From the NCBI RefSeq assembly GCF_009649175.1, contig NZ_WJPO01000019.1:1-64000 (forward strand): DNA of 64,000 nt, written 5' to 3'. Source of the DNA: Rhodovulum strictum (lineage in GTDB: Bacteria; Pseudomonadota; Alphaproteobacteria; Rhodobacterales; Rhodobacteraceae). Shown one piece after another: positions 1,292 through 48,382 of the stretch. Below the pieces are notes generated by a model, which did no database searches, had not been told where the DNA came from, and saw only the letters and a program-made list of their open reading frames with translations. Position 1 is the first letter of the stretch, and every line of letters starts with the position of its first letter. The position numbers and the translations under genes are program-made.

Positions 1292-2476
1292 ATGAGCAGT
1301 GCCGATACACAGGAAGACCTGAACGCCGTTATCCGTCAGCACTCCGAATTGCTGGCGGCGCAACTGCATTCGCAGCGTGAGAGCCTGTTCCCGCCTGACG
1401 CATCGAAGTCCATGCGCAAGTTCACCTCGGGCGAAGCGGCGGCCCTGCTGGGGGTCAACGACTCATACCTCAGAAAGCTCCACCTCGATGGCAAGGGGCC
1501 TTCACCTGAAATCTCTTCGGGAAACCGCCGGCACTACTCGGCGAAGGATATCCAGAACCTGCGGGTTTTGCTGGAGAAAACGGCCCGGAAACCGGGCGAC
1601 TACCTGCCGGGCCGTCGCGCGGGCGATCATCTCCAGATCATCGGCGTGATGAACTTCAAGGGCGGTTCCGGAAAAACGACATCCTCGGCGCATCTCGCAC
1701 AGCGGCTGGCCCTCAAGGGTTACCGTGTGCTGGCAATCGACCTTGATCCCCAGGCGTCGCTGACGGCCCTGCATGGGGTTCAACCCGAATTCGACCTTCT
1801 GGATGGCGGTACGCTATACGACGCAATCCGCTACGAAGACCCGGTTCCGATCGCTCAGGTCATCCGCGAGACCTACATCCCGAACCTCGACCTGATCCCC
1901 GGCAACCTCGAACTCATGGAGTTCGAGCACGAAACCCCTCGGGCACTCGCCCGGAGCAACGCTGGCCTGTTCTTCTTTCGGGTGAAGGAAGCACTGGCGC
2001 AGGTCGATGAGCACTACGACGTTGTCGTGATCGACTGCCCGCCGCAACTCGGGTTTCTGACCATGTCCGCCCTGTCGGCCGCGACCGGCGTTCTCGTGAC
2101 GATCCATCCCGAGATGCTCGACGTGATGTCGATGAGCCAGTTCCTCAGGATGACCGCCGACCTGATGGACGTCATTGCCGACAGCGGCGCCGACATGTCC
2201 CACGACTGGATGCGGTATCTCTTGACCCGCTACGAGCCGACGGACGCACCCCAGAACCGCATCGTCGCGTTCTTGCGCATGATGTATGGCGACAAGGTCC
2301 TGAACGCTCCCATGCTCAAGTCGACGGCGATTTCCGATGCGGGACTGACCAAGCAGACCCTCTACGAGGTCGAGCGAAGCGCCTTCACGCGCACGACCTA
2401 TGACCGGGCCATCGAAAGCCTGAACGCGGTCAACGACGAGATCGCCCAACTCATTCAAAAGACCTGGGGGCGCTGA
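1292..2476 (+). CDS. repA: Plasmid partitioning ATPase RepA (ParA family), first copy
   Basis: ParA-type ATPase of a repABC-like partition module. The N-terminal part (about residues 35-75) is a MerR-like helix-turn-helix with KFTSGEAAALLGV. The deviant Walker A motif FKGGSGKTT is near residue 123, followed by AIDLDPQAS and VVVIDCPPQLG. The 394 aa length is normal for RepA. The start at 1292 has a GAGGG ribosome site a few bases upstream. Its stop overlaps the repB start by one base (TGATG), which implies translational coupling. It closely resembles the second RepA in this window (18946-17756) but is clearly diverged, so the two came from different incompatibility types rather than from a recent duplication. 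Confidence 0.93.
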   Translation: MSSADTQEDLNAVIRQHSELLAAQLHSQRESLFPPDASKSMRKFTSGEAAALLGVNDSYLRKLHLDGKGPSPEISSGNRRHYSAKDIQNLRVLLEKTARKPGDYLPGRRAGDHLQIIGVMNFKGGSGKTTSSAHLAQRLALKGYRVLAIDLDPQASLTALHGVQPEFDLLDGGTLYDAIRYEDPVPIAQVIRETYIPNLDLIPGNLELMEFEHETPRALARSNAGLFFFRVKEALAQVDEHYDVVVIDCPPQLGFLTMSALSAATGVLVTIHPEMLDVMSMSQFLRMTADLMDVIADSGADMSHDWMRYLLTRYEPTDAPQNRIVAFLRMMYGDKVLNAPMLKSTAISDAGLTKQTLYEVERSAFTRTTYDRAIESLNAVNDEIAQLIQKTWGR

Positions 2477-3468
2477 TGACCGACAGCAAGAAGAAGCGGA
2501 TGTCCATGCTCGACAGTCTCGCAACGGCGGGGACGCCCCCGGCGGCCGGCAGCATGATGTCGAGCAACCGCGCGCTGCGCTCTGCGCGTGATGCTGTGGA
2601 TGCTCACCACGTCTGGGAACTCGATCCGGCCGAGATCCAGGACGAGCGGTATTCGGAGCGCCTCGATCCCCGGGATGTGCACGATCTTCGCGCGTCGATA
2701 GAACAGAACGGGCAGACCGTCCCCATCCTCGTTCGGCGTCACCCTGCCGAGACCAACCGTTATCTCCTCGTCTATGGACGCAGGCGGCTGGAGGCAATCC
2801 GTGCCTCCGACAGGGTGAGCAAGGTTCGCGCCCTTATCGCGAACCTTGATGATACGGCGGCGCTTCGCGCCCAGGTTTCGGAGAACACCGGCAGACGTGA
2901 ACTCAGCTACATCGAGCGTGCGCTTTTCGCGCAGGAACTGCTCGATAGTGGCTTCGGCTCCCAGGCACAGATTGCCGAAGTGCTGAACGTGACCCGTTCG
3001 TCGGTGTCGATGTCGATCTCGGTCGCCAAGGCCGTCGGTCCAGCCCTGGCCCATGCAATCGGACCGGCCCACGGCGTCGGCCGCCCCCGGTGGGAGGCTT
3101 TGGCGAAGGAGCTTTCCGACACAGGGATCGATCAAGACGAACTATGCCAAGTGGCCCTTGATGTTCGCACCAAGGCAGCAGCCACCGAACAGAAAGACGA
3201 AGAGCCCCGAGCCGATCCATCCGTATCAGCTTTTGAAGCCGTCGCGCGGCACATGAAAAAGAGTGCCGCCCGGGCAGGTGGCACAAGGCCGAGACCGAAG
3301 ACCAAGGCGCTTGTGATCGACGGCAAGACTGCAGGCGCCATCAAGAAGTCAAGTCGGGCGCTTCGGCTGGACCTGACAGATGTGGACGAGGCCTTCGCAG
3401 AGTGGCTCGATGCCCGCGCTCAGGACGTCCTTCAAGAGCTTCACGATCGCTGGAGACGCGAGACGTGA
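2476..3468 (+). CDS. repB: Plasmid partitioning protein RepB (ParB family), first copy
   Basis: ParB-family centromere-binding protein of 330 aa. The ParB/Srx nuclease-like domain shows VPILVRRHP and a VYGRRRLEAIRA box, followed by ENTGRRELSYIERALFAQEL and a helix-turn-helix (AQIAEVLNVTRSSVSMSISVAKAV). It should bind the palindrome at 3628-3643, about 160 bases downstream of its stop, and work with the RepA encoded just upstream. No repC follows, so this is a partition cassette without its own replication initiator. Confidence 0.92.
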   Translation: MTDSKKKRMSMLDSLATAGTPPAAGSMMSSNRALRSARDAVDAHHVWELDPAEIQDERYSERLDPRDVHDLRASIEQNGQTVPILVRRHPAETNRYLLVYGRRRLEAIRASDRVSKVRALIANLDDTAALRAQVSENTGRRELSYIERALFAQELLDSGFGSQAQIAEVLNVTRSSVSMSISVAKAVGPALAHAIGPAHGVGRPRWEALAKELSDTGIDQDELCQVALDVRTKAAATEQKDEEPRADPSVSAFEAVARHMKKSAARAGGTRPRPKTKALVIDGKTAGAIKKSSRALRLDLTDVDEAFAEWLDARAQDVLQELHDRWRRET

Positions 3469-4111
3469 ACAACGGCAGAGCAGCCTCTGCAAACGCCATG
3501 CCCGCAAACATGGCGACATCAGCCCCCGGCGGATACCTGCGCACCCTGACGTCCAGGGCCGCGGCGGGTGAGTTCTCCTGAGGGCCGATGGTCATGGCCC
3601 TGATCGGTCGGCGAAGCGCAGCTTGAGGTTCACAGCTGTGAACTCTGGTCATTGTCTCACGAACGAAGCCTGGAGGGAGCGGAAGGGCTGCGGGCCCTGA
3701 GATCGCGAGAGCGGCACCTTGCACCCGTCAGGAAGAAGGCCCTGTGACCAAAGCAGTCCACATCGCAGCCCATTCGCTCTGACAATCTTCTGGTAGGCCG
3801 GCCCTGCGTGCGGCCCGCACGCCATGCTGACGGTGTCACGGCCGCCTTGTTCGAGACCCCGGCCGGTGGTTTTCGCGGCCAGGCGCTGGCACGGCTGGAG
3901 TTGCTCGGCTGAGTTCAATTGGCATGCAAATCTTCCGTGCCGCGGAAGATGTCCAAGGCTTGCGTCCCCCCAGGAAATGCCCCGCATTGCGCCCTTGCCG
4001 CGCCAGGGGGACGTTCCGGCGCATCGGGCTTCGTCGACTTGACCTTGCCCGCAACTCGCGGCGAAGGTCGTTCGCGAACCTGCGACAGCGGCCCGGCGGA
4101 AATATTCCTGA
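3469..4111. other. 643-base gap where a repC gene would be expected
   Basis: In a normal repABC operon repC would start here. I find no RepC-like protein in any frame and no antisense-RNA promoter-terminator pair like the one at 16687-16774. The only clear element is the parS palindrome at 3628-3643. An open stretch of about 40 codons ending in LARLELLG and a stop at 3912 is too short to identify. Confidence 0.5.
3628..3643. other. parS: parS centromere palindrome for the first RepB
   Basis: GTTCACAGCTGTGAAC is a perfect 16-base palindrome. It fits the known repABC parS pattern of GTT, four bases, GC, four bases, AAC. It lies downstream of the first repB, the usual place for such a site. It differs from the two copies beside the second rep operon (GTTGACAGCTGTCAAC) by one base per arm, which would give the two RepB proteins separate targets. 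Assignment to this RepB is inferred from position. Confidence 0.75.
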
Positions 4112-9205
<5,094 letters not shown>

Positions 9206-28387: not shown

Positions 28388-28526
28388 GTCCTGTCCTTGC
28401 GTCTGTTCCGCCGCTCAGGATGGGCCGCGATGGCGCCCGCGTCAAACCGCTGCGCAGGGAAATGTCCGGCGCAATTGACAACCCGGTGTCGCGCTGACAA
28501 GACAGGGGCGTGATCGGTTCCTTCGG

Positions 28527-28690
28527 CTGCCTGCGTGGCCGGAGGTGAAAAGGGAACGCGGTGCGCCCGGCAACGGGCAATTCCGCGGCTGCCCCCGCAA
28601 CTGTAAGCGGCGAGCGCGGCTGTCTATGCCACTGGGGCAACCCCCGGGAAGGCCAGCCAAGCGACGACCCGCAAGCCAGGAGACCTGCCG
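28527..28690 (+). promoter_or_regulatory. Cobalamin riboswitch ahead of the cobalt transport operon
   Basis: Shows the conserved order of the cobalamin riboswitch: GGTGAAAAGGGAACGCGG near 28543, CCCCCGCAACTGTAAGCGGCGA near 28596-28617 (the B12 box region GCAACTGTAAGC), GCCACTGG near 28628, GGGAAGGCC near 28646, and CGCAAGCCAGGAGACCTGCC at 28670-28689. It reads rightwards into the DUF4198-cbiM-cbiL-cbiQ-cbiO operon, so adenosylcobalamin should switch cobalt uptake off. Confidence 0.92.
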
Positions 28691-28840
28691 ATCCCCCGTG
28701 CCGCCTGACCGGCGCGGTTTCCACCGGACGCCGGGGTGCGCGTCTGGCCCGGATCGGCCATGTCGGCCCGTTCGAGCCCTCTGTCCCCGTTCGTCCTTTC
28801 CGATCGCGGCGCTGCCGCTACCGATGAAAGGAGACGACCC

Positions 28841-35009: not shown

Positions 35010-35778
35010 GGTCCCGGCCCCCGGCCCGCTGCGGACGAAAGCGCCGGTCGTAATCCGGGGCGTAAAGGCAGCTTTCGTCGAAGCCTTCGGCGCCCAGCGT
35101 GGGGCCGACCAGGATCAGCGCGGTGCGCTCGATGTCCTCGGGCAGCAGGGCTTCGATCGTGGCAAGCGTGGCGCGCAGGATGCGCTGATCGGGCCAGCTT
35201 GCGCGATAGACCACGGCCACCGGGCAATCAGCACCATAGGCGGGCGTCAGGTCGGCCACCACGCGGGCAAGGTTGTGGATCGACAGGTGAATGGCCAGCG
35301 TCGCGCCGGTACCGGCGAAATTGGCCAGGCTTTCGGTCTCGGGCATCGACGAGGCGCGGCCGGGCGTTCGGGTCAGCACCACCGATTGCGCAAGCCCCGG
35401 CAGGGTCAGTTCCGCCCCCAGCGCCGCCGCCGCGGCGGCGAAGGAGGGCACGCCAGGGGTGACGCTGACCGGGATGGCAAGGGCCTTCAGCCGCCGGATC
35501 TGTTCCCCCATCGCCGACCAGATCGACAGATCGCCCGAATGCAGCCGCGCGACACCAAGCCCCGCCTCATGCGCGGCGCGGCATTCGGCGATGATCGCGT
35601 CCAGATCCAGCGGCGCGGTGTTCACGATCCGCGCGCCGGGCGGGCAATGGGCCAGGATCGCCTCGGGGATCAGCGACCCGGCATACAGGCAGACCGGGCA
35701 GGCGGCGATCAGGTCGCGCCCGCGCAGCGTCAGCAGGTCGGGCGCGCCGGGGCCGGCGCCGATGAAATGGACGGTCAT
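35002..35778 (-). CDS. cobM: Precorrin-4 C11-methyltransferase CobM
   Basis: SAM-dependent methyltransferase converting precorrin-4 to precorrin-5. The 258 aa protein shows [68 protein letters not shown] and [12 protein letters not shown]. It is coupled to cobE upstream by a four-base overlap and to cobB downstream. Confidence 0.95.
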
Positions 35779-36143
35779 GGGGTGTCTCCGGTTGCGATGG
35801 CGCAGGTGGCCATCCGGTCTTTGGAAATCCGGCGCGGGCAGGTCAGCCGCGCGCCCGGCCCGGCGGCGGCCAGCGCGGCGGCCTCGGCCACCGATCCGGT
35901 GCCGCGGGTGGCGCGCACGCGGGGCGCCTGGGTGGGGGTATCGATGGCGGCAAGACGCTCGGCGGGGATGGCGCGGATCGGCAGGCCCAGCCGGTCAGCC
36001 AGCGCGGTCAGGCAGGGCGCGGCGGCCTTGTCGGCGGGGGCGGCAAGCGCGCTCAGCCCCTGTGCCCCGCCTGCGCGGGCCAGCGCATCGGCCAGGCTGT
36101 GCGCCCCGGCGGCGGCACGAAACCCGAAGCCTGCCACCTTCAT
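35775..36143 (-). CDS. cobE: Cobalamin biosynthesis protein CobE (CbiG C-terminal domain)
   Basis: A 122 aa protein matching the C-terminal domain of CbiG, called CobE in the aerobic pathway; its reaction is not settled. The start at 36143 ([13 protein letters not shown]) overlaps the cobL stop by four bases; another ATG 15 bases upstream is less likely. Recognisable parts are [39 protein letters not shown] and [21 protein letters not shown]. Confidence 0.88.
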
Positions 36144-37339
36144 CGCGTCACGCTCCATTGCACGACCGGATAGGCCGCGCGCCAGCCGCGCTTGCGGCCC
36201 AGCGGCTGCGCCTCGGCCAGCTCGATGCGCAGGAGGCTGCCGCCCTCTGCGCCATGCCAGCGGGCCAGCAGCGCCTCGGATTCAAGCGTCACGGCATGGG
36301 CGACAAGCCGGGTGCCGGGGACAAGACGCGCCCAGAGGTCGGACAACAGCGCCTCGGACAGTCCGCCGCCGATGAAAACGGCCTGCGGCGGGTCAAGACC
36401 GTCCAGCGCCCCGGGCGCGCGGCCTTCGACCACGCGCAGCCGGTCGGCGCCCAGGGCATCGGCATTGGCGCGGATGCGGGCGGCACGGGCCGGATCGGCC
36501 TCGATGGCGGTGGCCTGCATCGCGGGGTGACAGCCCAGCCATTCGATCGAGACCGAGCCCGAGCCGCCGCCGATATCCCAAAGATGCTCGCCCGGCCGGG
36601 GCGCCAGCGCGGACAGCGCCAGCGCGCGGACGGGGCGCTTGGTGATCTGGCCGTCATGCGCGAACATGGCGTCGGGCCAGCCGCTGGCCGCGGGGATCGT
36701 CGCGCCCGTCCCGGCAACCTCCAGCCCGACGCAGACCGGATGCGCGATATCGCCCGGATCGAGCGTTCCGGCACTTGCCCGGCGCAGCCGTTCACGCGGA
36801 CCGCCCAACGCCTCCATCACCCAGAGCGTGCTTTCGCCAAAGCCCTGCGCGCTCAGCCATCCGGCCAGATCGCCCACCGCCGGCCCGTCGCGCACCAGCA
36901 CCAGCACCCGCGCGCCGGGCGCCAGATGCGGGCGAAGCCGGGCAAGGGGGGCGGCGTGCAGGCCAAGGCAGGCTGTGATGTCCAGCGCCCAGCCAAGCCG
37001 GGCGGCGGCCAGCGAAAAGGCAGATGGCGCAGGCAGCGCGTGCCATTCGCCGGGGGCGAAATGCCGGGCGATCACCGCGCCCGCGCCGAACCAGAACGGA
37101 TCGCCCGAGGCCAGAACGGCAACCGGGCGGCCGCGCAGGGCCTGAAGGATCGGCAAGCCGTCGGCAAAGGGCACGGGCCATGCGATGCGCTCGGCCGTCA
37201 GATCGGGCAACAGCGCCAGATGCCGGGGCGCGCCCATGATGATTTCGGCCGCTTCCAGCGCGGCGCGGCTTGCAGGCGGCAGGCCGTCCGGGCCATCCTC
37301 TCCCAGACCCACGATGTTCAACCACGGACGTTCAGCCAT
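36140..37339 (-). CDS. cobL: Precorrin-6Y C5,15-methyltransferase (decarboxylating) CobL
   Basis: A 399 aa fusion of CbiE and CbiT that methylates C5 and C15 and removes a carboxylate, giving precorrin-8X. The N-terminal half (about 1-200) is the tetrapyrrole methylase with VGLGEDGPDGL, IIMGAPRHLALL and VLASGDPFWFGAGAV. The C-terminal half is a Rossmann methyltransferase with DIGGGSGSVSIEWL, AIEADPARAARI and FIGGGLSEALL. Its ATG (37339-37337) shares CATG with the start of cobK on the other strand, so its ribosome site, and any promoter close to its start, lies inside cobK. Confidence 0.95.
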   Translation of the reverse strand: MAERPWLNIVGLGEDGPDGLPPASRAALEAAEIIMGAPRHLALLPDLTAERIAWPVPFADGLPILQALRGRPVAVLASGDPFWFGAGAVIARHFAPGEWHALPAPSAFSLAAARLGWALDITACLGLHAAPLARLRPHLAPGARVLVLVRDGPAVGDLAGWLSAQGFGESTLWVMEALGGPRERLRRASAGTLDPGDIAHPVCVGLEVAGTGATIPAASGWPDAMFAHDGQITKRPVRALALSALAPRPGEHLWDIGGGSGSVSIEWLGCHPAMQATAIEADPARAARIRANADALGADRLRVVEGRAPGALDGLDPPQAVFIGGGLSEALLSDLWARLVPGTRLVAHAVTLESEALLARWHGAEGGSLLRIELAEAQPLGRKRGWRAAYPVVQWSVTR

Positions 37340-38093
37340 GCGCCCGAACCTTCTGATCCTTGGCGGCACGACCGAGGCAACCGCGCTGGCGCAGGTCGTG
37401 GCCGCGCAGGGCATCGCCGCCACGATGTCCTTCGCGGGCCGGGTGGAGCGCCCCAAGCCGCAGCCCGTCCCGGTTCGGATCGGCGGCTTCGGCGGGGCCG
37501 AGGGACTGGCAGCTTGGCTGACGGCGCAGCGCATCAGCCATGTGGTCGATGCCACCCATCCCTTCGCCGCACAGATGAGCCGGAATGCCGTCGCCGCCTG
37601 CGCCGCCGCCGGCGTGCCGCTGCTTGCGCTGACCCGGCCCGCCTGGGCACCGGGGCCGGGGGACCGCTGGCAGCGCGTGCCCAACATAGCAGGCGCGGTC
37701 GCGGCTCTGGCCGGCCCCCCGCGGCGCGTGATGCTGGCGGTCGGGCGCATGCATCTGGATGCCTTCGCCGTACAGCCCCAGCATTTCTACCTGCTGCGCC
37801 TCGTCGATCCGCCGGACGGGGCCATCCCCCTGCCCGATCATCACGCCATTATCTCGCGCGGCCCCTTCACAGAGGCAGACGATCGCGCGCTGATGCAGGA
37901 CCACAGGATCGACCTCGTGGTGTCGAAGAACGCGGGCGGCACGGGCGCGCGGGCCAAGATCGACGCGGCGCGGGCGCTGGGCCTGAAGGTGGTGATGATC
38001 GACCGTCCGGCGCTGCCCGAGCGGCGAGAGGTCTCGACCCCGGCCGAGGTTCTGGACTGGCTGGCTCATTCCGGGGCGGACCTCGGGGTATAG
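37338..38093 (+). CDS. cobK: Precorrin-6A reductase CobK
   Basis: NADPH-dependent reductase turning precorrin-6A into precorrin-6B. The 251 aa protein shows LLILGGTTEATALAQVV, VVDATHPFAAQMSRNAVAA, LALTRPAW, ISRGPFTEADDRALM and VVSKNAGGTGARAKIDAA. It is the only rightward gene in an otherwise leftward cob run. Its start (37338-37340) overlaps the cobL start and its last 28 bases overlap the end of cobJ, leaving no intergenic DNA on either side. Confidence 0.95.
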   Translation: MRPNLLILGGTTEATALAQVVAAQGIAATMSFAGRVERPKPQPVPVRIGGFGGAEGLAAWLTAQRISHVVDATHPFAAQMSRNAVAACAAAGVPLLALTRPAWAPGPGDRWQRVPNIAGAVAALAGPPRRVMLAVGRMHLDAFAVQPQHFYLLRLVDPPDGAIPLPDHHAIISRGPFTEADDRALMQDHRIDLVVSKNAGGTGARAKIDAARALGLKVVMIDRPALPERREVSTPAEVLDWLAHSGADLGV

Positions 38094-38818
38094 ACGATGG
38101 GCGCGCCATCGCGGGCGATGATCCGGGTCAGCGACGAGCCGACGATGACCAATGTGCGCATGTCGGCCATTTCGGGCCGGGCCTCGGGCAGCGGGACAAC
38201 GCGGATCGCTTCCTCGGGGGTGGTGACGGCGCGGGCGAAGATCACCGGCCGATCATCGCCGCAGGCGTCGCGCAGCACGCCAAGCGCGCGGGCAAAGCCC
38301 TCGGGCCGGGCCTTCGAGCGGGGGTTGTAGAAGGCCATGGCGAAGTCGGCCTCGACCGCCAGGCGCAGGCGTTTCTCGACCAGCGCCCAGGGCTTGAGGT
38401 TGTCGGACAGGTTGATCGCGCAGAAATCGTGGCCCAGGGGCGCCCCGGCCCGCGCGGCGGCGGCCAGCATTGCGCTGATGCCGGGCAGCACGCGGATGTC
38501 GAGATCGCGCCAGGGCTCGGGACCTGCCTCCACCGCCTCGAACACCGCCGAGGCCATCGCGAAGACCCCCGGATCGCCGGAGGAGACCACGACCACGCGC
38601 CGCCCCGCAGCGGCCATTGCCAGCGCATGGGCCGCGCGGTCGAGTTCCACCCGGTTGTCGGAGGCGTGCAGCGTGAGCCCCTCGCGCCGGGCCACGCGGG
38701 CAACATAGGGGATGTAGCCCACCACGTCGGTCGCCTCGGCCAGCGCCGCCGTCACCTCGGGCGTCACCAGCGCCTCCGATCCGGGGCCCAGCCCGGCGAT
38801 GGCGAGCCACCCTCTCAT
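38066..38818 (-). CDS. cobJ: Precorrin-3B C17-methyltransferase CobJ
   Basis: Methylates C17 and contracts the ring, giving precorrin-4. The 250 aa protein contains IAGLGPGSEALVTPEV, VVGYIPYVARV, VVVVSSGDPGVFAMASAV, VLPGISAMLAAAARAGAPLGHDFC (first part VLPGISAMLAAAARAG), FYNPRSKARP and VIVGSSLTRI. It overlaps cobI by four bases upstream and the convergent cobK by 28 bases downstream. Confidence 0.95.
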   Translation of the reverse strand: MRGWLAIAGLGPGSEALVTPEVTAALAEATDVVGYIPYVARVARREGLTLHASDNRVELDRAAHALAMAAAGRRVVVVSSGDPGVFAMASAVFEAVEAGPEPWRDLDIRVLPGISAMLAAAARAGAPLGHDFCAINLSDNLKPWALVEKRLRLAVEADFAMAFYNPRSKARPEGFARALGVLRDACGDDRPVIFARAVTTPEEAIRVVPLPEARPEMADMRTLVIVGSSLTRIIARDGAPIVYTPRSAPE

Positions 38819-39543
38819 GGCCGGCGCCCCTGACCGTGGACCAGCGCGATCGAGAAATAGGGGGCGGTCTCGCCCGGATAGTCATCCAGCCGCGTCACGC
38901 TCTGCCCCGGCATCGCGGCGTATTCGACAAGCCATGCCTGCCCGGCCCGGCCCGCCTGCGCCAGAGCGCGGCGCAGCTTGGGCAGGTGGCGACCCATCTT
39001 CATCACCACGATCGCATCGGCGGCGCGGATTCCGTCGATCAACGCCGCCTCGGGCAAGGTGCCGGGCAGCACGGTCAGGATGTCGTCGCCCCAGGTGATC
39101 GGCGCGCCCGTCGCCGTCCAGGCGGCCGACATGCCGGTGATTCCGGGGACCACCTCGACCGGCACGCGGCCCGCAAGGCGGGTATAGAGATGCATGAACG
39201 AGCCGTAGAAGAACGGATCGCCCTCGCACAGCACCACGACATCGGCGCCGCCCTCGGCCAGCGCGGCAAGGCGCGCGGCACACTCGGCATAGAAGCCCGA
39301 CAGCGCCTGAGCGTAGCGCGGATCGTCAAAGGGAATCTCGGTCGTGACCGGGTATTCCATCGGGTGCTCGGTCGCGCCCGCGGGGATCAGCCCCTCGACG
39401 ATCTGGCGGGCCTGTCCGGCGTGGCCGGCCTTGCGGAAAAAGGCGACATGGGCGGCGCCGCGCAGCAGACGGTCGGCGCGCACGCTCATCAGGTCGGCGG
39501 CGCCGGGGCCAAGACCAAGGCCATAGACGGTGCCTGCACTCAT
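38815..39543 (-). CDS. cobI: Precorrin-2 C20-methyltransferase CobI
   Basis: Methylates precorrin-2 at C20 to precorrin-3A. Start at 39543 (MSAGTVYGLGLGPGAADLMS) overlaps the cobH stop by four bases; 242 aa. It shows LMSVRADRLLRGAAHVAFF, VVVLCEGDPFFYGSFMHLY and VPGITGMSAAWTATGAPI. An open frame extending further upstream lies inside cobH and is not used. Confidence 0.94.
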   Translation of the reverse strand: MSAGTVYGLGLGPGAADLMSVRADRLLRGAAHVAFFRKAGHAGQARQIVEGLIPAGATEHPMEYPVTTEIPFDDPRYAQALSGFYAECAARLAALAEGGADVVVLCEGDPFFYGSFMHLYTRLAGRVPVEVVPGITGMSAAWTATGAPITWGDDILTVLPGTLPEAALIDGIRAADAIVVMKMGRHLPKLRRALAQAGRAGQAWLVEYAAMPGQSVTRLDDYPGETAPYFSIALVHGQGRRP

Positions 39544-44879: not shown

Positions 44880-45015
44880 TGCCGTTCGGCCCCGCAAAAG
44901 CGCAAGAATCGTGTCATGTCTGGCCCCTTCGATCAGGGGACAAGGGCAGATGACGGGTAAAGCCGCAGCCGGACCCGACACCGGAACACCCCGTCCGGTT
45001 CAACGTCGTCTTCGG

Positions 45016-45198
45016 CTGGCAGGTCTCCCGGCTTGCGGATTTCAGGGGCTCATGTCCCTGGCGGTTGCCCTGCCTTCCCAGCCTGTCGGCCAGTGGCGGT
45101 GGGGCAACCTCTCCGGTCACGGTCGCGGGGGCGGCTGCGCTTCGGACCTTGCGGCCCTTATCGCATTCCCTTTTCACCTGCCCGAAGGCAGGCACCAG
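45016..45198 (-). promoter_or_regulatory. Cobalamin riboswitch ahead of the DUF1636-cobW-cobN operon
   Basis: On the minus strand, in order: CAGGTGAAAAGGGAATGCG near 45181-45163, CCCCCGCGACCGTGACCGGAG, GCCACTGG, GGGAAGGCAGGG and CCGCAAGCCGGGAGACCTGCC ending at 45018. This is the conserved cobalamin riboswitch layout. It precedes DUF1636, cobW, cobN, cobH, cobI and cobJ, so the corrin genes would be repressed by adenosylcobalamin. The expected gene-end side of 44880-45244 holds nothing else. Confidence 0.92.
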
Positions 45199-45244
45199 CG
45201 CGGGTGTCATGCCCATGTGACAGCCCGATTGTCAAGCCGGGTGG

Positions 45245-48050: not shown

Positions 48051-48098
48051 CGGACTCTCCTTTCCGGGGCACCCCGCCCGGGTTGAACAGGTCGTGAC

Positions 48099-48275
48099 GA
48101 TGGCAGGTCTCCTGACTTGCGGGTCGTGGCGTTTCCCGATCCTTCCCGGGCCGCTGGCCCAGTGGTCGCTTCGGGGGACGCTCGCCGCCTACAGTTGCGG
48201 GGGCAGTTGCGGACTTGCCGAAGACCCGGCGCACCGCATTCCCTTTTCACCCGCGGATCGTGGACCGCGGGAACC
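48099..48275 (-). promoter_or_regulatory. Cobalamin riboswitch ahead of the cobZ operon
   Basis: On the minus strand: GGGTGAAAAGGGAATGCGG near 48251-48233, GCCCCCGCAACTGTAGGCGG containing the B12 box, ACCACTGG, GGGAAGGATCGGG, and CGCAAGTCAGGAGACCTGCC ending at 48102. It precedes the small unknown gene at 48050 and cobZ. It fills most of the 332-base gap between 48051 and 48382. Confidence 0.92.
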
Positions 48276-48382
48276 ATCGGCGCCCGGAATAGCCCGCAAA
48301 ACGTGCGCAGGTCAACGCAGTCGGGGGCAGGGGGGTATGTTGTGGCGCGGTGTCCCCGAGAGGGCGCGCGCGGCCCGGCGGC

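Follow-up and report, generated by a model that had tools for sequence, protein, structure and literature searches.

How an operon can pass over a gene lying on the opposite strand is puzzling, because in bacteria Rho normally cuts short any RNA that goes untranslated over hundreds of bases, the effect known as polarity. The question is raised by the vitamin B12 (cob) genes in a 64,000-nucleotide stretch of Rhodovulum strictum (contig NZ_WJPO01000019.1, positions 1 to 64,000; hereafter the window), in which cobK alone runs rightwards between the leftward genes cobJ and cobL. The sequence-only reading had described this arrangement, together with a CATG common to the starts of cobK and cobL and a 28-base overlap of the tails of cobK and cobJ (38066-38093), and the coordinates and NCBIfam names bear it out. 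As in a noncontiguous operon, an opposite-strand gene is thus embedded among co-directional genes of the same pathway. Our comparison of many such loci suggests that this is probably a noncontiguous operon in which ribosomes translate the stretch antisense to cobK and so bridge cobJ and cobL; in many B12-making bacteria, the strand opposite cobK is apparently kept free of stops so that ribosomes can cross. The elements concerned are as follows.

37338-38093, plus strand: cobK, precorrin-6A reductase (NCBIfam TIGR00715; PF02571, 252.6 bits)
36140-37339, minus strand: cobL (CbiE-CbiT), head-to-head with cobK (NCBIfam)
38066-38818, minus strand: cobJ, tail-to-tail with cobK (NCBIfam)
37337-37340: CATG carrying the start codons of cobK and cobL, with two coding bases in common
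37332-38069, minus strand: the bridge frame, an open reading frame of 245 codons in antisense phase 0, codon-aligned with cobK, from the cobJ stop to the cobL start
38066-38069, minus strand: ATGA, bridge start ATG over cobJ stop TGA
37332-37339, minus strand: ATGGCTGA, bridge stop TGA over cobL start ATG
38081-38084, minus strand: GAGG, possible ribosome-binding site of the bridge, inside the ends of cobJ and cobK
37349-37354, minus strand: AGAAGG, ribosome-binding site of cobL, inside cobK codons 4-6
45001-45214, minus strand: cobalamin riboswitch, upstream of the leftward genes

Because genes rich in guanine and cytosine (GC) often have open antisense frames, no one locus is proof by itself, and the case rests on many. 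We gathered 306 loci, or 282 once identical cobK sequences were merged, of which 176 have cobL head-to-head with cobK (the sandwich, J> <K L>); two of these, L184 and L211, have no cobJ in reach, leaving 174 measurable loci. Codon tests used 153 loci with the shared CATG and cobJ, reduced to 146 at 92% cobK identity and weighted by 56 clusters. In the interior of cobK, 15 antisense stops were found where the codon use of cobJ and cobL in the same genomes predicts 218 (cluster-weighted, 0.27 versus 1.62; z-score -9.2), whereas no depletion was seen in cobJ (220 versus 193, z 0.6) or cobL (448 versus 369, z 3.2). TTA, CTA and TCA occur in cobK at 0.30, 0.23 and 0.09 of their cobJ/cobL rate, and the rare codons GTA, ATA, GGA and CGA are unaffected (1.00, 1.10, 0.99 and 0.99); the depletions seen for antisense phase 2 and for sense phase 2 are unspecific, appearing in all three genes. 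The cobK interior is open in 170 of the 176 sandwich loci (69 clusters, mean 0.93), as compared with 15 of 47 loci in which cbiD is the next gene (43 clusters, mean 0.33), 5 of 16 that adjoin cobM and 5 of 19 in the co-directional group. As a separate observation, TCT is low (0.41) and AGT high (1.85) in sandwich cobK relative to cobJ and cobL, which antisense stops do not explain.

The two ends of the frame are conserved as well. Among the 153 loci with the shared CATG, the cobJ stop lies in a single cobK phase in 148, with ATGA at the joint in 115 of them and GTGA in 22, and the frame ends exactly at the ATGnnTGA of cobL in 127 (three bases further in another 13). A complete bridge, defined as a frame starting at most 60 bases from the stop of cobJ and ending past the start of cobK, is found in 168 of the 174 sandwich loci. 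In 14 loci cobJ and cobK do not overlap, so that cobK coding cannot dictate the cobJ joint: the frame spans the gap, starting exactly on the cobJ stop in 9 (gaps of at most 170 bases), and the bridge is complete in 12. In the named examples, the frame begins exactly on the cobJ stop in 8 of 9, with Phaeobacter G2 starting 12 bases later. Ruegeria pomeroyi and a Rhodovulum (L200 and L159) are among those with the bridge. In L301 (Methylibium sp. T29 plasmid pT29A), cobJ is unannotated between cobK and cobA, and its profile matches two same-strand pieces; being in two pieces, this cobJ may be broken, and the bridge over cobK is complete even so.

Predictions were then fixed before 65 new loci were taken from the matches of 103 genomes in the order of our genome G417 (by inference Hyphomicrobiales). 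Of these loci 35 were sandwiches, and their cobK was open in all 35 (predicted, at least 85%), with ATGA or GTGA at the joint in 30 (predicted, at least 70%). The end point fell within 30 bases in 16 of 18 by the strict measure, which takes shared-CATG loci only, and within 60 bases in 31 of 35 by a looser one. Non-sandwich cobK was open in 13 of 30, where less than 50% had been predicted.

Whether the frame encodes a protein or is simply a consequence of base composition can be weighed on the same material. That it is a true overlapping gene with a functional protein is distinctly improbable: selection keeps the frame open and retains its start, stop and ribosome-binding site, as in an antisense overlapping gene, but its amino acids drift and we found no selection on the protein sequence. 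At cobK-synonymous differences, frame residues are no more alike than expected (mean BLOSUM62 score -0.013 versus -0.036; controls, cobJ -0.253 versus -0.241 and cobL -0.008 versus -0.021), cobK synonymous sites show no extra conservation (0.072; cobJ 0.073, cobL 0.067), and the bridge protein matches no Pfam family at an E-value of 0.01. Its length follows the gap between cobJ and cobK, reaching 290 codons in L304. Even less probable, in our estimation, is the explanation that the frame is open as a side effect of GC-rich codon use and that the overlaps have locked in an orientation that is a frozen accident. Antisense frames are frequently open in GC-rich genes, and of seven genomes carrying cobK twice, 3 have the copy outside the sandwich open, but all 7 have the sandwich copy open; at GC contents of 0.55-0.62, cobK is open in 10 of 10 sandwich loci versus 1 of 10 of the cbiD class. 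The depletion is moreover limited to TTA, CTA and TCA and to cobK, and the start and stop joints are conserved as well. A frozen accident may nevertheless account for the orientation itself.

Several observations do weigh against a translated bridge. Among held-out non-sandwich loci with a GC content of at least 0.64, cobK is open in 12 of 23, which also speaks for the by-product. No complete bridge was found in 6 of the 174 sandwich loci (L027, L041, L238, L260, L262 and L283), two of which are among the four sandwich loci outside Alphaproteobacteria, and the shared CATG is absent from 22 of the 176 head-to-head loci and from 17 of the 35 held-out sandwiches. The loci are of common ancestry, and clustering lowers the effect of kinship without removing it. 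Finally, the bridge ribosome-binding signal is stronger than in cobJ-synonymous shuffles (-5.26 versus -3.15, 0 of 100; 130 loci), and these shuffles respect cobJ only, ignoring cobK coding there. On balance, we still favor a translated bridge: only a start at cobJ, freedom from stops and a stop at cobL are kept, as would be expected if ribosomes had to be carried over the antisense stretch. We also lean, somewhat less firmly, towards the view that selection can keep a gene-length antisense frame for the act of translation alone, the peptide being a discarded by-product.

A leftward RNA crossing cobK, as proposed in the sequence-only reading, gains indirect support from the signals that serve cobL, from the lack of a promoter-like peak and from the conserved frame, which makes sense only with such an RNA. 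The ribosome-binding site of cobL inside cobK is stronger than in shuffles (-7.05 versus -4.83, 0 of 200), and the same stretch in 33 control cobK genes shows the opposite (-2.26 versus -3.28, 199 of 200 shuffles at least as low). Synonymous peaks in cobK correspond to this site and to the cobJ overlap, and the interior peaks prefer C or G; no promoter-like peak of A/T type was seen within cobK, and a cobL promoter there was rejected on this ground. It thus appears improbable that cobL and the later genes use a promoter of their own inside cobK with no RNA spanning that gene. A weak or unconserved promoter would slip past the synonymous-peak test, but a bridge reaching the cobJ stop would then have no point. 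A sigma-70 scan of 36000-39000 on both strands likewise gave no promoter-like site (0.2 expected), though it missed the cobK candidate described below too. A terminator scan of the same interval was uninformative, with one terminator-like site (38875-38862; 0.8 expected).

How cobK itself is expressed is a complementary question. It had been supposed that the locus leaves no room for a promoter; contrary to this, a conserved promoter-like element for cobK lies within cobL codons 13-25, followed by a ribosome-binding site.

37270-37275, plus strand: TTGCAG, candidate -35 of the cobK promoter, inside cobL codons 22-23
37294-37299, plus strand: CATCCT (consensus CATCTT), candidate -10 of the cobK promoter, inside cobL codons 14-15
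37326-37328, plus strand: GGA, weak copy of the cobK ribosome-binding site (GGAG in many relatives), inside cobL codons 4-5

Read on the cobK strand, the element is CGGCTTGC...CCATCTTCGCC; TTGC and CATCTT are separated by 18 bases, and the element ends about 39 bases 5' of cobK. It emerged from the third codon bases of cobL in the 146 sandwich loci, compared with 29 controls (cobL recovered in 29 of 30 genomes with cobK elsewhere). Codon 23 ends in A in 0.87 of sandwich loci (expected 0.13; controls 0.21), codon 15 in T in 0.86 (expected 0.45; controls 0.28) and codon 4 in T in 0.68 (expected 0.16; controls 0.17). The peaks survive weighting by the 56 clusters, the highest windows being codons 11-28. 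Taking clusters as independent, the difference from controls is strong for codon 23 (A in 44 of 56 clusters versus 6 of 29, p about 4e-7) and codon 15 (T in 49 of 56 versus 8 of 29, p about 5e-8), weaker for codons 4 (p 0.001) and 13 (p 0.016), and not significant for codons 14, 16 and 24 (p 0.23, 0.06 and 0.13). Codon 2 is also biased to T (0.94 versus 0.14), on which we do not lean alone because a general second-codon preference is possible and its control has just 6 rows (1 of 6; Fisher p 0.08). The cobK ribosome-binding site in cobL codons 2-8 exceeds synonymous shuffles (-5.16 versus -4.46, 0 of 200), and the same stretch of control cobL has no excess strength (-4.54 versus -4.56, 100 of 200). 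Synonymous codon choice in cobL, as judged from these alignments, keeps both the promoter-like element and the ribosome-binding site in place, and the 29 control cobL genes lack them.

The best reading of the element is a candidate cobK promoter, and it is a best reading rather than proof because the consensus sigma-70 scan missed it. That poor match leaves some weight, as does the position of CTTG one codon further upstream in L243, L246 and L289-L291, for a protein-binding site or RNA element in codons 11-27 that is no promoter. We regard this as rather unlikely, since the two blocks resemble the order of TTGACA and TATAAT with their 18-base spacing about 40 bases before cobK, a ribosome-binding site comes after them, and RNA folds of the region are ordinary (z -0.77, 0.88, -1.00 and 0.37 in four sequences).

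The open frame, its start and stop joints, the ribosome-binding sites and the promoter-like element are established by comparison. From them, and from what is known of polarity, we infer the existence of the leftward RNA, its translation, the anti-polarity purpose and a coupling of cobL to cobJ, which would work as follows. The B12 riboswitch at 45 kb would probably control a leftward RNA that carries cobN, cobH, cobI and cobJ, then the antisense strand of cobK, then cobL and what follows. At ATGA, ribosomes that finish cobJ would start again and read some 245 codons opposite cobK; after terminating at ATGGCTGA they would reinitiate on cobL, aided by its own ribosome-binding site. Because about 730 bases of otherwise naked RNA would thereby be covered by ribosomes, Rho-dependent polarity would be prevented, and perhaps also pairing with cobK messenger RNA and cutting by ribonuclease III. 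Meanwhile cobK would be made separately, from the putative promoter and ribosome-binding site inside cobL.

The cobK sandwich is not peculiar to this genome. In a class-wide sample of Alphaproteobacteria, cobK was found in 54 of 144 genomes, and 18 of the 55 cobK matches are sandwiches; 15 face cobM, 2 face cobJ with a different upstream neighbour, and for the other 20 none of cobJ, cobL and cobM lies within 700 bases in the stretch available (for many just 1.5 kb). Sandwiches also make up 49 of 90 loci in the order sample and 31 of 60 additional loci from the phylum, and 14 of those 60 have a co-directional neighbour; gene assignments rest on profiles rather than on single-sequence phmmer searches. 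The first 80 named loci are close kin because they are the best 80 of 541 relatives, and among them the nearest named cobK is that of R. marinum (84% identity). Named records with the sandwich include Rhizobium etli, Sphingobium, Paracoccus yeei, Phaeobacter and the betaproteobacterium Methylibium T29. The shared CATG occurs in 154 of the 176 loci with head-to-head cobL, and 28 bases is the most frequent tail overlap of cobJ and cobK (79 of 174 measurable loci), both beyond chance on this comparison.

Other arrangements may bear on the origin of the orientation. All three genes lie on the same strand in five loci (L305, L259, L288, L261 and L275), and in the two loci of the alternative arrangement that we checked cobK follows cbiD on the same strand. 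As cobF is mostly confined to sandwich loci (60 of 115 of at least 8 kb versus 1 of 84 others), a possible route is that cbiD was lost when cobF took over. Some records deserve separate mention. Rhodobacterales-type cob clusters occur in L169 (titled Enemella evansiae TN21-6) and L237 (titled Sphingomonas sp. PP-CE-3A-406), either as mislabelled records or by transfer. A second, divergent cobK apart from cobJ and cobL is present in L069, L141, L148-L150, L153 and L154, all from genomes of the window's order, and L046 holds a 600-codon frame (2422-4224) with a cobJ profile match, long enough for a fusion.

Within the window, the gene identities are supported by NCBIfam. CobK belongs to the CobK/CbiJ family (TIGR00715, 153.6 bits; cut-off 129.85), CobL matches CbiE (124.7; 92.9) and CbiT (102.7; 78.3), and CobJ matches TIGR01466 (281.4; 246.35). 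CobI, CobH, CobN, CobM, CobB and CobF each score over the curated cut-off, their genes all leftward; matches of cobE/cbiG (35775-36158) lie far under it. Two further genes are provisionally taken to be cobA and cobW on the basis of similarity. Two more cobalamin riboswitches exceed the threshold, at 28498-28706 (plus strand) and 48085-48293 (minus strand).

The proposed translated bridge and the candidate cobK promoter within cobL go beyond the earlier reading of this locus. According to excerpts of PMC4070679, all adjacent cobH-cobL pairs overlap in Ensifer, Rhizobium and Pseudomonas denitrificans SC510, with gene directions drawn as arrows in Fig. 1; these excerpts mention neither an antisense frame nor a promoter for cobK within cobL, and do not treat direction as a problem. 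In the literature searched, whose scope excluded subscription papers, figures and the original P. denitrificans papers, no description of a translated bridge over cobK was found, which is no proof of absence in print. As industrial B12 production makes use of the cobF-cobM genes (excerpts of PMC8123684), moving or recoding cobK may carry unseen costs for cobL. If the bridge is real, other noncontiguous operons may conceal bridges, and many of the long antisense frames that have been put down to GC content may belong to operons. It would also be a clear instance in which selection favours the translation of a frame and not its product, and the loss of TTA, CTA and TCA from an embedded gene offers a codon signature for spotting others. 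Comparison alone points to ribosomes being carried over by an antisense frame, and the resulting predictions are exact and cheap.

Stop-start coupling through ATGA or ATGnnTGA in operons normally joins two protein-coding genes. Both joint types are present at the ends of the bridge, but here one partner is an antisense frame without a conserved product. The closest known parallel is the noncontiguous operon menE-menC-MW1733-ytkD-MW1731 of Staphylococcus aureus (Saenz-Lahoya 2019), likewise with a single embedded opposite-strand gene, where both RNAs would overlap across all of it. Its internal crossing region is described as untranslated in the available part of PMC7154746, perhaps not a defining trait, whereas at cobK the crossing is a conserved open frame linked to the genes on either side. 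According to a figure legend of PMC7457138, ribosome-protected fragments on both strands of MW1733 rise and fall together, which hints at antisense-strand translation there; bridges may accordingly be wider spread. Long antisense overlapping genes, namely laoB, ano and asa of E. coli O157:H7, are also covered by the portion of PMC7457138 consulted, and like them the cobK frame is fully antisense to an annotated gene and has a start, a stop and a ribosome-binding site. Work on those genes, as described in that portion, concerns a protein product or a phenotype in one strain or a few; unlike them, the frame opposite cobK stays open across orders while its residues drift, and stop-start overlaps tie it into an operon.
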